Assembly: GCA_022482625.1 (NCBI GenBank) | Contig: JAKVOU010000001.1 | Span: 744,001-808,000 of the forward strand | Source: Spirochaetia bacterium | GTDB taxonomy: Bacteria; Spirochaetota; Spirochaetia; Sphaerochaetales; Sphaerochaetaceae | Reading direction: 5' to 3' | DNA length: 64,000 bases | Shown here: piece by piece, positions 16,358-21,636 of the stretch | How positions within the stretch are numbered: the first letter of the stretch is position 1 | Layout: each line of letters begins with the position of its first letter | The notes under the pieces: model-generated | Told to the model about the DNA's origin: nothing | What the model saw: the letters and a program-made list of their open reading frames with translations, nothing else | The model's database searches: none | Made by a program: the position numbers and the translations under genes

Positions 16358-17516
16358 TCATTTCGAGTATGCTTCGATGTAAGAATTTACCTGCGATGCA
16401 AGAAAAAGCGGCAGATTGAGCAGACGATACGGTCTTGCAGCATTGGAAGAAGTAACAGGTGTCCTCGCCTCTTCCACGGAAAATGTACCGCTGTATAACC
16501 GGACGGCAAGGCTATTCCCTGATGCATTGATGAATTCATGAAGGGAACGGAGTGTCCCATTCTTGCCTGATTTGACTTCAACAGGATATACCTTGCCTTT
16601 ATTTACCGTCAGGAAATCCACTTCAGCATTCGATTGTTTCTCTTCACGTATCCAAAACAAGGGTTTTTCACATATGGTATTGCTTCGAGCCATAAGTTCC
16701 TGGGCAACCAGCTGCTCAGCAAGTTTACCGGCATATAGAGCATCAAGAGATTCTTCGGTAAAATATGCCGCCTGGCCCCCCAATGCATAACCAAGCAACC
16801 CGGTATCAATAAATTGCAGCCGAGGCCTTCGCCTCAGATTCGGTACAAGAGGAAGTGCATAGCCAGTTACAGGATATCGCAGGTACAGTAGCATTGCTCG
16901 CTCCAAGGTACGCAAGGCATTTCCTACTTCCTTCGATTTGTAGCCTGAATTTCCAAAATGTTCAAAAGCAATCCGGTTCCCGACCTCCGCCGGAGTACTT
17001 TCAATGACATGCCTGATGATATCCGTTTCATGGCCACCCTTTGCGTATTTTGAAACATCATCCTTATATGCGGTAAGCAGGCTCTCATATACCGGCGAAA
17101 GCTGTGAAAGATCTTTCGTTTCGGCATACCGCACAACGGCTTCTGGCATTCCTCCGACAAATGTATAAAGCCGGAATAGCTCCATGAGCTTCTGCTCTGC
17201 GTACCGAGGGACAGGGATCGTATGGAAAGCATCAAGTGCCTGTGTTTCTCCTAATGCCTGAAGGAATTCTTCAAATGTCATCGGAAACAGGTAACGATAC
17301 TCAACCCGCCCGACAGGAAAGTTGACATGACGCTTGTCCATGGATATTTCAAGCAATGGCTCCGCACCGATGACAAACAAATCCGGCAACTCCTCATAGA
17401 AATAGCGCATCTGCATGACAGCCTGCGGCGAGTTTTGGATTTCATCAATGAACAGAAGCGTATCACCCTTTCTCCTGCAGTTCTTTTCAAGACAGATATA
17501 CTGGATCAATTCTTTT
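16358..17516 (-). pseudogene. C-terminal part of AAA ATPase (AAA_14/DUF4143), separated by IS insertion
   Basis: Downstream part of an ATP-binding protein cut by an IS1595-family element. It holds the Walker B segment DTLLFIDEIQNSP, the sensor region, and the C-terminal DUF4143 half, with the nuclease-like AEVDFLTV...VYPVEVKSGKNGT motif. The 8 bases ATTCTTTT at 17509-17516 are the target duplication. Joining this part to 18712-18919 with one copy of the duplication restores an uninterrupted 452-codon gene (VKE|LIQYIC), a normal length for the family. An internal ATG might allow a product lacking the P-loop, but it could not bind ATP normally. Function of the family is unclear; it is common in accessory regions. 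Confidence 0.88.
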
Positions 17517-18711
17517 GGCTCTGTTTTCCAAGTGTATTGCTAAGCGCTTGAAGCGACCGTCTTTTTGTAATATACTCAACATATGTTATGTAAAGACAAA
17601 GAAACCATCAGCCTTGAAACATTGGCGGAAATGCTCGGGAATCTGTCGGAACAGGACCGCCAGAGGGTCATTGCATTGGCCGAACTGGCAACGTATGCTC
17701 CCGACAAGCATCGGGACAGTCACGAGGACATGCCGCGTTGTCCCCATTGCTCCGGTGTCCATGTCCGTCGCAACGGCTTCGTCAGGGGCAGGCAGCGGTA
17801 TCTCTGCGGGGATTGCGGGCGTACGTTCGGGGCGACCACCGGTTCTGTGCGATACAAGAGCAAGCACGGCAAGGAAACCTGGGAGGCCTACCTGGAGGCA
17901 TTCGCCCTGAGGCTTCCCCTGCGGGAGGCCGCACGCAAGTGCGGCATAGCGCTGAGCACCTCGTTCTTCTGGCGGCACAAGATCCTCGATGCACTGGCGA
18001 CGGGATCCACGGGGAACTTGCTCAGCGGCCGGGTACAGGAGGACGAGACGTACATCCAGGACAACTACAAAGGCAACTGCGATGCGGAAAACAACTTGGG
18101 AACCAGGGGGAAGCGGCATCGGAGCCCGGCATACAAGACCCATAGGGTGACGGGCCATCGTCATGAGAGAGGGAAAGCGACCCATACGAGGGGCTTGGGC
18201 AACCAGAAGGTCTGCGTGCCGTGCGCCATCGACGAGCAGGGGAAGACCCTGGCGAAGGCTGCCGGCAGGGGGATGGTGCAACCCCGCTACCTTTCCTTTG
18301 TCCTGGCCTCGCACCTGGGCGATGACGTGGTGATGGTGACCGACAAGAGCCGGGCAAGCCGGGAATTCTGCGCCTCGGATGGCCTGCCGGTGGTACAGCT
18401 GAAGGCGGGCATACAGGGATGCCCGGTACGAGGGCGATACAACTTGCAGAAGGTCAACAGCCTGCATAGCCGTCTTCGGGGGCTGCTGGCTGGATTCAGG
18501 GGTGTCTCCACGAAATATCTTGACGACTATCTTGCCTGGAATGGCTTCGAGGTCGAGAACCCCGGATCGAATCGCCTGGATCTGAAAACCGTATTGCTGG
18601 ACAAGATGCGGACAATCGGAACATGTTCAACCTATTGGGGGATATTTCACAAGCCTCCCTTGCCTTTTCCCACTGTTGGCTAGCCCTGCAATACACTTGG
18701 AAAACAGAGCC
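17517..18711 (+). mobile_element. IS1595-family insertion sequence, copy 1 (1195 bp, complete)
   Basis: Bounded by perfect 24-bp terminal inverted repeats (17517-17540 and 18688-18711) beginning GGCTCTGTTTTCCAAGTG and by an 8-bp target duplication, ATTCTTTT (17509-17516 and 18712-18719). An 8-bp duplication and a zinc-ribbon DDE transposase fit the IS1595 family. More GC-rich than the host genes. It interrupts the AAA/DUF4143 gene within codon 70 and carries one intact transposase gene, so it may be mobile. Confidence 0.95.
17583..18683 (+). CDS. IS1595-family transposase, intact
   Basis: A 366-residue transposase. The N-terminal zinc ribbon shows CPHC (Cys53, Cys56) and CGDC (Cys75, Cys78), followed by RTFGATTGSVRYKSKHG and a helix-turn-helix like LREAARKCGIALSTSFFWRH. 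The catalytic core has the first Asp in VQEDETYIQ (about residue 154), the second in DVVMVTDKSRAS (about 252), and a C-terminal NSLHSRLRGLLAGFRGVSTK block that is the hallmark of the ISXO2/IS1595 DDE domain. It lies entirely between the terminal repeats. No good ribosome site precedes the ATG, as is common in insertion sequences. Confidence 0.92.
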   Translation: MLCKDKETISLETLAEMLGNLSEQDRQRVIALAELATYAPDKHRDSHEDMPRCPHCSGVHVRRNGFVRGRQRYLCGDCGRTFGATTGSVRYKSKHGKETWEAYLEAFALRLPLREAARKCGIALSTSFFWRHKILDALATGSTGNLLSGRVQEDETYIQDNYKGNCDAENNLGTRGKRHRSPAYKTHRVTGHRHERGKATHTRGLGNQKVCVPCAIDEQGKTLAKAAGRGMVQPRYLSFVLASHLGDDVVMVTDKSRASREFCASDGLPVVQLKAGIQGCPVRGRYNLQKVNSLHSRLRGLLAGFRGVSTKYLDDYLAWNGFEVENPGSNRLDLKTVLLDKMRTIGTCSTYWGIFHKPPLPFPTVG

Positions 18712-18919
18712 ATTCTTTTACAGAAAGAGAGCTCCTGAATAAACTGAGGTCACTCTCAATGTCCATATTGAGATAGATGAATGTGTCGAATTCTGCTCCG
18801 AATTCCTTCACAACAGTTGTCTTACCCGTCTGTCGCGCACCACGGATAACCAGAGGTTTCCGGTATGGCGACTTTCGCCATTCTCTGAGATTTCCAAGAA
18901 GATTACGGTAAAATTCCAT
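18712..18919 (-). pseudogene. N-terminal part of the interrupted AAA ATPase (AAA_14/DUF4143)
   Basis: Start of the gene whose remainder is 16358-17516. The ATG at 18919 has GGTGG eight bases upstream. It encodes MEFYRNLLGNLREWRKSPYR followed by the P-loop GARQTGKT at residues 27-34 and IYLNMDIESDLSLFRSSLSVKE, where the IS begins. Read into the IS, the frame gives about fourteen foreign residues and stops. Without its Walker B and DUF4143 parts this fragment cannot work as an ATPase. Confidence 0.88.
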
Positions 18920-19003
18920 ATCTGTTTCCACCGCCTATTGCACAAAGTCAACCCAATTTTCACTCTTTTAAGATACAAAGTCAACCCAATTTTCATTATT
19001 ATT

Positions 19004-20187
19004 GGCTCTGTTTTCCAAGTGTATTGCTAAGCGCTTGAAGCGACCGTCTTTTTGTAATATACTCAACATATGTTATGTAAAGACAAAGAAACCATCAGCC
19101 TTGAAACATTGGCGGAAATGCTCGGGAATCTATCGGAACAGGACCGCCAGAGGGTCATTGCATTGGCCGAACTGGCAACGGATGCTCCCGACAAGCATCG
19201 GGACAGTCCCGAGGACATGCCGCGTTGTCCCCACTGCTCCGGTGTCCATGTCCGTCGCAACGGCTTCGTCAGGGGCAAGCAGCGGTATCTCTGCAGGGAT
19301 TGCGGGCGTACGTTCGGGGCGACCACCGGTTCTGTGCGATACAAGAGCAAGCACGGCAAGGAAACCTGGGAGGCCTACCTGGAGGCATTCGCCCTGAGGC
19401 TTCCCCTGCGGGAGGCCGCACGCAAGTGCGGCATAGCGCTGAGCACCTCGTTCTTCTGGCGGCACAAGATCCTCGATGCACTGGCGACGGGATCCACGGG
19501 GAACTTGCTCAGCGGCCGGGTACAGGAGGACGAGACATACATCCAGGACAACTACAAAGGCAACTGCGATGCGGAAAACCAGGGGGAAGCGGCATCGGAG
19601 CCCGGCATACAAGACCCATAGGGTGACGGGCCATCGTCATGAGAGAGGGAAAGCGACCCATACGAGGGGCTTGGGCAACCAGAAGGTCTGCGTGCCGTGC
19701 GCCATCGACGAGCAGGGGAAGACCCTGGCGAAGGCTGCCGGCAGGGGGATGGTGCAACCCCGCTACCTTTCCTTTGTCCTGGCCTCGCACCTGGGCGATG
19801 ACGTGGTGATGGTGACCGACAAGAGCCGGGCAAGCCGGGAATTCTGCGCCTCGGATGGCCTGCCGGTGGTACAGCTGAAGGCGGGCATACAGGGATGCCC
19901 GGTACGAGGGCGATACAACTTGCAGAAGGTCAACAGCCTGCATAGCCGTCTTCGGGGGCTGCTGGCTGGATTCAGGGGTGTCTCCACGAAATATCTTGAC
20001 GACTATCTTGCCTGGAATGGCTTCGAGGTCGAGAACCCCGGATCGAATCGCCTGGATCTGAAAACCGTATTGCTGGACAAGATGCGGACAATCGGAACAT
20101 GTTCAACCTATTGGGGGATATTTCACAAGCCTCCCTTGCCTTTTCCCACTGTTGGCTAGCCCTGCAATACACTCGGAAAACAGAGCC
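19004..20187 (+). mobile_element. IS1595-family insertion sequence, copy 2 (1184 bp, 11-bp internal deletion)
   Basis: Same element and orientation as copy 1, 292 bp downstream. Its ends carry the same terminal repeats (one mismatch in the right end, ACTCGG for ACTTGG). It has its own 8-bp duplication, TTATTATT (18996-19003 and 20188-20195), so it inserted independently. Compared with copy 1 it lacks 11 bases, AACTTGGGAAC or an equivalent frame, at about 19579, probably by slippage between short AAC repeats. Confidence 0.95.
19070..20159 (+). pseudogene. IS1595-family transposase, frameshifted
   Basis: Near-identical to the copy 1 transposase, including the zinc ribbon (CPHC, then CRDC instead of CGDC) and the first catalytic Asp (VQEDETYIQ). 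The 11-base deletion near 19579 shifts the frame just after DNYKGNCDAEN, and translation ends at 19621 after 183 residues. The rest of the catalytic domain continues in another frame to 20159. The product would lack the second and third catalytic residues, so this copy could move only if copy 1 supplies transposase. Confidence 0.93.
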
Positions 20188-20289
20188 TTATTATTTGACA
20201 TAAAATATACCCAATTCCAACTGTATCTCGGCATAAAGTCAGGGCAATCAAACAAAACAACGACAAAATCAAAGTCAAATTACCTTTTT

Positions 20290-20571: not shown

Positions 20572-21636
20572 TTACTTGGGCGATTCCTGGCTGTCGGCTC
20601 TCACATAAAAGGTCGCTCTACCAACGCCCGAGCGTATGATGAAGCCTTCCTCGACAAGTGATTTCAGTGCGTTTTCTATTGATGACTTGCCGGCTGAAGG
20701 AACTATGTCCATAATCTGGCGTTTGGTAAATCTTCCAATCACACTTTCGACGGCCCTCCGTACCTGCCCAAGGCTGTTTGTTTTCTCTGATGCAAGCGTC
20801 ATCCTGTCATCCAGATCGCGGTAAGCCGCAAGGATTGTCCCAAGAAGGTATTTGATGAATGGCAGAGGATTGTTTTCACCAATGTTCCAACCCTGGTCCG
20901 AAGCTGAAAGCGTGTCGTAATAGGCGTCCTTGGTCTTCGAAATTTTTGATTCCAAGCTAATGTATCTTCCTACATTGAATCCCGCCTTATACAGAAGGAG
21001 CGTGGTGAGTAACCTGCTCATCCTCCCGTTTCCGTCATTGAATGGATGGATGCAGAGAAAATCAAGGATGAAGACAGGGATGAGAATCAGAGGCTCGACT
21101 ATATGGTTGCCTACCGCCCTATTGTAGTTTTCACAGATTGCCTCGATGGCACCAGGAATCTCATATGGAGCAGTTGGGAGAAAAGCAATCCACCGTTTTC
21201 CGTCGGCATCGAAGGTGTTTATCTCATTCTGCGAGTCTTTGAACTTGCCTCCGAAACCGACGTCAGCATACTGCATCAGGTCACGGTGAAGCTGGAGGAT
21301 GTAGGAAGGTTTCAGGGGAATAAACTCATAATTACTGTGGATTGTATTCAGAACATCACGGTACCCAGCAATTTCTTTCTCATCTCGGTTCCTCGGGGTC
21401 GTCTTCTCTGCACAGATCTGGGCAAGACGTGAGGTCGTGGTCCGGATGCCTTCGATTGCATTCGATGATTCCGTGCTTTGTCGCTTGGCGACTTCGACAA
21501 GTCGATCGAGCATTTCAGTTTTCTGGGTTGCATACAGTTCCTGCTTTCCCTTGGCTTCGTGGATCTGGGCAATGTAGGAGATAGTCTGGCTGTCCAATTT
21601 TGAATCAGCAAGACGAGAATAATCGAATGATCTCAT
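20572..21636 (-). CDS. Fic-domain protein (class II, self-inhibited AMPylase type)
   Basis: A 354-residue protein. The Fic active site HPFNDGNGRMSR (His197 to Arg208) matches HPFxDGNGRxxR completely, so AMP transfer or related chemistry is expected. The inhibitory motif S/TxxxEG appears N-terminal to the core as SNAIEG (Ser58, Glu62, Gly63), placing it in class II. A winged-helix-like C-terminus (KRQIMDIVPSAGKSSIENALKSLVEEGFIIR) suggests DNA or partner binding. AAGGAG lies 7 bases before the ATG. Such proteins are frequent in accessory regions; target unknown. It is not a FicT/Doc toxin with a separate antitoxin, since the inhibitory helix is built in. Confidence 0.9.
   Translation of the reverse strand: MRSFDYSRLADSKLDSQTISYIAQIHEAKGKQELYATQKTEMLDRLVEVAKRQSTESSNAIEGIRTTTSRLAQICAEKTTPRNRDEKEIAGYRDVLNTIHSNYEFIPLKPSYILQLHRDLMQYADVGFGGKFKDSQNEINTFDADGKRWIAFLPTAPYEIPGAIEAICENYNRAVGNHIVEPLILIPVFILDFLCIHPFNDGNGRMSRLLTTLLLYKAGFNVGRYISLESKISKTKDAYYDTLSASDQGWNIGENNPLPFIKYLLGTILAAYRDLDDRMTLASEKTNSLGQVRRAVESVIGRFTKRQIMDIVPSAGKSSIENALKSLVEEGFIIRSGVGRATFYVRADSQESPK

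Follow-up and report, generated by a model that had tools for sequence, protein, structure and literature searches.

What does an array of short repeats, set at an exact 33-bp period, do in front of a gene for a predicted ATPase-nuclease? The question is raised by a 64,000-nucleotide stretch of DNA, here called the window, from a Spirochaetia bacterium of the family Sphaerochaetaceae (GenBank assembly GCA_022482625.1, contig JAKVOU010000001.1, positions 744,001 to 808,000 of the forward strand). In it, such an array lies upstream of a gene of the abundant PDC-S01 family, a PADLOC candidate for anti-phage defense in which an AAA_14 ATPase is fused to DUF4143. Our comparison of this locus with its relatives indicates that the repeats most likely serve as docking sites through which the protein would control its own production. 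Specifically, we favor, at a probability of about two in three, a private, helically phased self-operator array for the PDC-S01 product, which would repress its own transcription. Sites specific to the gene, two to five in number and 32–33 bp (approximately three helical turns) apart, would overlie the promoter, and the PDC-S01 protein would bind to them with its subunits lined up along one side of the helix. The bound protein would then repress transcription of its gene until infection or depletion releases it. We infer from the sequences each of the three elements of this account: the binding of the protein to the sites, the involvement of its winged helix, and the repressive outcome.

The repeat array in the window and among the relatives

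The repeat units lie on the minus strand, as does the gene. The gene-proximal unit 1 (18943..18962), which reads CAAAGTCAACCCAATTTTCA on the plus strand, lies 23 bp before the ATG, with TGAAAATTGGGTTGACTTTG toward the gene. Unit 2 (18976..18995) stands at +33 bp and is identical to it, with zero mismatches, as had been noted in the preliminary description of this DNA. The same description held that two more degenerate copies fall at +33 and +66 once the second of two insertion sequences (IS copy 2) and one target duplication are removed. We carried out this excision by script, dropping IS copy 2 with one 8-bp target duplication and rejoining the non-coding flanks, and both copies were found in place. 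Unit 3 (TAAAATATACCCAATTCCAA, 20201..20220; 13/20) is at +33 from unit 2 and unit 4 (TAAAGTCAGGGCAATCAAAC, 20234..20253; 11/20) at +66. In 20,000 dinucleotide shuffles the single p values were 0.002 for unit 3 and 0.022 for unit 4, and the joint p value for the two in register was 5e-5, which upholds the earlier opinion that the restored phasing is improbable by chance. The top lag of the rejoined, IS-free sequence was 33. Tandem Repeats Finder did not detect the 33-bp array in the IS-containing window, because IS copy 2 interrupts the repeats. An additional CAAAGTCA copy was seen near 20271, about 37 bp further and off register. No other site in the window matched CAAAGTCAACCCAATTTTCA with three or fewer mismatches (shuffles expect 0.02). 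The array in the window is by itself suggestive; it is the relatives that render the case decisive.

Two sets of relatives were read upstream of the start codon, one drawn from named genomes and confirmed by tblastn, the other taken from related genomes. Counts were made on 105 genes that shared less than 70% protein identity and whose 160-bp upstream region could be read, obtained by searching the A1 profile across 196 related genomes and fetching the loci. This count set is skewed to Spirochaetes, whereas the named and viral sets are not. The best direct-repeat lag was 31–34 bp in 83/105 of these non-redundant relatives (33 bp in 46 and 32 bp in 33), compared with 7.1% for the dinucleotide shuffles (binomial p = 3e-74). 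The check on homologous upstream regions that the preliminary description had proposed thus came out in favor of the periodicity. When the same statistic was applied with a score cut of 14/16, strong arrays were present in 59/105 relatives, as against 3/172 for unrelated genes taken from these loci (Fisher p = 2e-27). Genes on viral contigs, a sample independent of the set-up of the statistic, had the 31–34-bp lag in 17/20 cases.

The focal clade ranges over Spirochaetes, Clostridia, Bacteroidales, Chlorobiota, Thermoleophilia and Gammaproteobacteria and includes plasmid-borne genes; the same array architecture was found on plasmids of Acinetobacter, Fusobacterium and Collinsella. The core of the repeat varies among these groups. 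It is TTGACTTTG in Treponema and Clostridia, CTTGACTTTTT and similar in Chlorobiota and Thermoleophilia, TTATTCGTCAAGAAAAGTGT in Bacteroidales, TTCGTTCATGAAAGTG in Lachnospiraceae, and the palindromic CTTTTATGCGCATAAAAGTG in Gammaproteobacteria. The Fibrobacter relatives carry copies of TTGACTTT and CTGACTTTG about 35–36 bp apart, which were not scored as 33. Among 116 genes with a scored core, the arrays held two (61), three (44), four (10) or five copies (1), and the median distance between the last copy and the ATG was 32 bp. A CRISPR-like array, a longer series of constant repeats with unique spacers between them, was ruled out on the number of copies (2–5) and on the degenerate cores of about 16–20 bp. 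In the relatives L064, L065, L076, L179 and L181 every 32–34-bp unit is itself palindromic, as in CACGTTTTTCGTACGAAAAACGTG, with palindromes of as much as 24 bp; this suggests one dimer for each unit. In other subclades just one half-site is recognizable per unit.

The encoded protein and the promoter

The gene in the window is in two parts, both on the minus strand. The 5′ part (18712..18919) runs from the ATG at 18919 through the Walker A motif GARQTGKT to IS copy 1, and the 3′ part (16358..17509) encodes the rest of AAA_14, the winged helix and the DUF4143/PD-(D/E)XK domain with its AEVDFL...PVEVKSG motif. The 3′ part matched the PADLOC model for PDC-S01 at E = 3.6e-136, covering positions 70–443 of 448, and an intact homologue from Treponema (L044) matched it at E = 7.5e-171. 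Pfam AAA_14 and DUF4143 were both matched in the window gene. The PADLOC match and the fusion of an AAA_14 ATPase to DUF4143/PD-(D/E)XK are what define membership, and the focal protein and its relatives belong to the PDC-S01 family, to whose description the phased array is an addition. The Walker A sequence GARQxGK and the nuclease residues E...D...ExK are conserved among the relatives, and the conserved AEVDFL...PVEVKSG motif is as would be expected of an active PD-(D/E)XK site.

The protein is predicted to consist of an AAA+ ATPase, a winged helix and a PD-(D/E)XK nuclease. An AlphaFold2 model of L044, built from 26 sequences, had a mean predicted local distance difference test score (pLDDT) of 90 and a predicted template modeling score of 0.89. 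The top structural matches of its AAA+, lid and winged-helix part were two archaeal AAA+ ATPases, 2qen (PAB2304; Z 16.4, root-mean-square deviation 4.4 over 267 residues) and 2fna (SSO1545; Z 15.6, 4.0 over 265 residues), followed by the NLR and CED-4 proteins of the STAND class. Foldseek ranked Orc1/Cdc6 beside 2qen. The alignments with 2qen and 2fna stop near model residue 313 and leave the C-terminal nuclease domain outside. Residues 226–303 of the model resemble the winged helices of DNA-binding proteins and regulators, namely Zalpha, RbkR with its operator, Rrf2 and MarR/MepR (Z 6–8 over about 65 residues). The C-terminal 227 residues, which include this winged helix, reached a pLDDT of 86 when modeled alone; the nuclease part resembles McrC and the Can1/Can2 nucleases at Z of about 6–7, which is weak on its own. 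A sequence search of the PDB returned no close relative of the whole protein.

The array overlies what appears to be the promoter of this gene. Promoter boxes were called by consensus and start codons were picked by alignment. The last repeat interval of genes in the focal subclade is a promoter-like sequence of the sigma70 type, TTGACT-N17-TAAAAT-TGCC, with a total length of 33 bp. This layout places the -35 box inside one repeat, keeps the standard 17-bp spacer, and puts the predicted transcription start within the next repeat. In the window gene, TTGACT-N17-GAAAAT occupies the corresponding register: the -35-like TTGACT of unit 2 (18979..18984, minus strand) stands 17 bp before the -10-like GAAAAT of unit 1 (18956..18961, minus strand), which is TAAAAT in most close relatives. 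The pattern TTGACT-N17-TAnnnT was found in L042–L047, L049–L055 and L060, and in 2/172 controls. The TTGACT box, which the preliminary description saw in each full unit, is specific to the focal subclade and also serves there as the -35 box; it is not a general feature, because the other subclades have unrelated cores. Since those cores are unlike a -35 box, the period is no by-product of the promoter sequence. Coverage of the -35 region together with the transcription start is the classical layout of repressor operators. Repeated sites that overlap the promoter of their own gene are what a multi-site operator entails, and the layout suggests that the array probably represses this promoter.

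Gene-specific cores and the weighing of explanations

The cores are dedicated to their own genes. Outside the upstream region we found 1 match to the cores, compared with 2 for reversed-core controls, in a search space of 0.7 Mb. Pattern searches in four whole genomes (G000, that of the window, and G077, G109 and G096) confined each core to its own promoter; other sites carried three mismatches and were about as many as the reversed control gives, which is the chance level. In G096 three copies of the core stand exactly 32 bp apart, with no other match in the genome. Dedication of this kind, seen in all four genomes, is in keeping with an operator. The core sequence diverges quickly while the spacing holds at 32–33 bp. 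Core similarity is 15.6/16 above 80% protein identity and falls to about 9/16, the background, below approximately 40%. The choice between a lag of 32 and of 33 is shared by 86% of relatives above 70% identity and by 53% of those below 35%. Of 38 pairs of paralogues within one genome, 33 are below 12/16 in core similarity. The remaining 5/38 share their cores, compared with 14.5% of random pairs, and so the search for avoidance of shared cores among same-genome paralogues was negative; full orthogonality is therefore not claimed.

Several observations weigh against repression by the encoded protein. No 31–34-bp array was detectable in about a fifth of the relatives, and the focal -10 box, GAAAAT, is weak. 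The winged helix of STAND ATPases such as CED-4 is no DNA-binding module, and the presence of STAND ATPases among the best structural matches weakens the assignment of a DNA-binding winged helix here. The attempt to assign repeat specificity to a protein domain, by correlation of domain identity with the core and by comparison of same-core with different-core pairs, did not converge: its outcome depended on the identity window, with phase errors in the cores as a source of noise. The array may also activate transcription instead of repressing it. Lastly, the reader of the repeats could be an unlinked host transcription factor in place of the encoded protein, which we hold to be quite improbable. 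Promoter-proximal repeats commonly serve separate regulators, as is the case for RptR at a defense island (PMC12255303). Yet the cores differ in those 33/38 paralogue pairs, they occur at no other genome site, and the TTGACTTT/CTGACTTTG core is common to Treponema, Clostridia and Fibrobacter. A single host factor would not fit cores that differ among paralogues and recur across phyla. We favor self-regulation because the cores accompany the gene from phylum to phylum, are mostly different between paralogues and are found at their own gene only.

The remaining explanations keep the protein or the geometry in view and give the array another task. It could be a docking or licensing platform, on which the ATPase-nuclease is held inactive and ready to oligomerize, to be released or activated in infection, with control of transcription being secondary. 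The AAA+ fold is near those of Orc1/Cdc6 and of STAND ATPases that form oligomers, the constant 32–33-bp phasing suggests contacts between subunits, the two to five sites of an array are all at the own gene, and the nuclease motif is conserved. A platform would need only to be near the gene, whereas the arrays are at the promoter, and in the focal subclade the register matches the -35 and -10 boxes, a match that follows from an operator but is not required of a platform; we regard the platform as unlikely. The exact 33 bp of TTGACT-N17-TAAAAT-N4 in the focal subclade would be accounted for by tandem duplicated promoters, each unit being a -35/-10 pair. This is very improbable: most other subclades keep the 32–33-bp spacing with cores unlike a -35 box (for example TTCCCCTAGAAAAGTG and TTCGTCGGTAAAACGTG), and a good -10 box is present solely in the last interval, so that the units do not each carry their own pair. 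Least probable of all are sites of recombination or replication, such as iterons or the ends of a mobile cassette. The spacing is iteron-like, the AAA+ fold is Orc1/Cdc6-like, and genes of this kind are found on plasmids and viral contigs. However, the repeats are absent from the downstream side of the gene and from the rest of the loci, most arrays are on bacterial genome contigs beside a promoter and have mostly two or three copies, and their location, at the median distance given above from the start codon and near promoter-like boxes, speaks against replication iterons. The preliminary description had left the choice between an iteron-like array and a multi-site operator; the operator is the better supported of the two, because the array keeps its position and spacing upstream of homologues from many phyla, overlies the promoter and is confined to its own gene.

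The self-operator account can be carried further. PDC-S01 might be a one-gene immune system, in which the ATPase-nuclease would assemble as a phased oligomer on private repeats. These repeats would keep the gene silent and, at the same time, tether the enzyme to self DNA in an inactive state. The sites would diverge together with the specificity, so fast that each cell would have several largely distinct copies. We offer this larger picture tentatively and consider it doubtful as a whole.

The local copy, other DUF4143 clades and known systems

The copy in the window has been struck twice by one IS1595/ISXO2-like element, whose two copies lie inside 2.7 kb, one in the gene and one in the array. 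IS copy 1 (plus strand, 17517..18711; target duplication ATTCTTTT) splits the PDC-S01 gene. IS copy 2 (plus strand, 19004..20187) has a frameshifted transposase reading frame and identical 13-bp ends GGCTCTGTTTTCC, is flanked by the 8-bp target duplication TTATTATT at 18996-19003 and 20188-20195, and splits the array. As gene and array are both split, the local copy is very probably dead and the finding concerns the family. Repeated insertion at one locus suggests that the system is dispensable or costly. Internal stops (TGA/TAG/TAA) are present in L209, L212, L213 and other relatives, further relatives being intact, a pattern which suggests that the family may decay often. Adjoining the array is a Fic-domain gene (20572-21636, minus strand) that matched PADLOC SoFic at E 1.4e-39, and thus two candidate defense genes stand side by side. 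An Rfam scan of 16–22 kb of the window returned no RNA family.

In DUF4143 genes outside the focal clade, 33-bp arrays are rare. Promoter-proximal inverted repeats with arms of at least 9/10 were present in 46/96 of these genes and in 13/90 controls (TTACGGAGAT...ATCTCCGTAA is an example), and 22–23-bp direct repeats in 7/96 and in 1/172 controls. L088, L130 and L144 have such direct repeats upstream, at about two helical turns, L088 with three copies of a unit whose core is CTTCCCGTTTTGCAAGA. The lags of 22–23 and 32–33 bp are one helical turn apart, and intermediates are nearly absent among the significant cases, so phasing on the face of the helix fits. The earlier proposal that proteins would line up on one face agrees with the lags preferred in the focal clade (32–33 bp) and in the other DUF4143 clades (22–23 bp). 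These patterns fit a general rule by which DUF4143 genes would bring their own operator, with a geometry set by the subfamily. The genome of the window has 19 DUF4143 matches (L001–L019), several of which are preceded by inverted or direct repeats of their own, such as L006 with 23-bp and L019 with 33-bp spacing; L002 and L003 are seemingly identical and about 10 kb apart.

PDC-S01 is among the most frequent predicted defense genes of bacteria and archaea (PMC12988326; PMC13356809). One report describes it as a fusion of an ATPase and a PD-(D/E)XK domain and ranks it fourth among the defenses of prokaryotes by frequency, counting 29,494 instances in bacteria and 9,986 in archaea (PMC12988326); another names it as the individual locus found most often in genomes from the rumen (PMC13356809). 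In Thermus thermophilus the DUF4143 gene TT_P0211 was reported to be up 6.6-fold with a plasmid, and only when Argonaute was present (PMC4406477). The openly licensed literature yielded no account of how PDC-S01 works and, in its accessible portions, no description of repeats upstream of DUF4143/PDC-S01 genes or of 33-bp repeats beside AAA ATPases, which agrees with the initial impression that no system of this layout had been described. A conserved, gene-specific phased operator would be a first handle on PDC-S01, as it predicts the bound DNA and the spacing of the subunits. It would supply a binding assay and a reporter for inducers of the system, and it would aid in the annotation of true starts and intact systems. 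The changing site sequence with its fixed geometry would constitute a natural library of largely distinct protein–operator pairs.

Two kinds of known system invite comparison. The origins read by iteron-binding or AAA+ initiators (plasmid Rep, DnaA boxes, Orc1/Cdc6) have helically spaced direct repeats, a reader with a winged helix and/or an AAA+ domain, and often autorepression. The likeness is in the helical spacing of the PDC-S01 repeats and in Orc1/Cdc6 being among the top structural matches. Unlike iteron arrays, the PDC-S01 array is of few copies and is located at the promoter of a gene for a PD-(D/E)XK fusion. The nearest described regulation is that by RptR in a defense island of E. 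coli, where promoter-overlapping direct repeats likewise control a defense locus and are bound by a repressor (PMC12255303). RptR acts as a separate regulator of small size, and the repeats that it binds are three 9-bp units with TAGCTA within about 27 bp (PMC12255303). In contrast, the PDC-S01 arrays are spaced at 32–33 bp, have a gene-specific core, and recur across phyla without a shared neighboring regulator.
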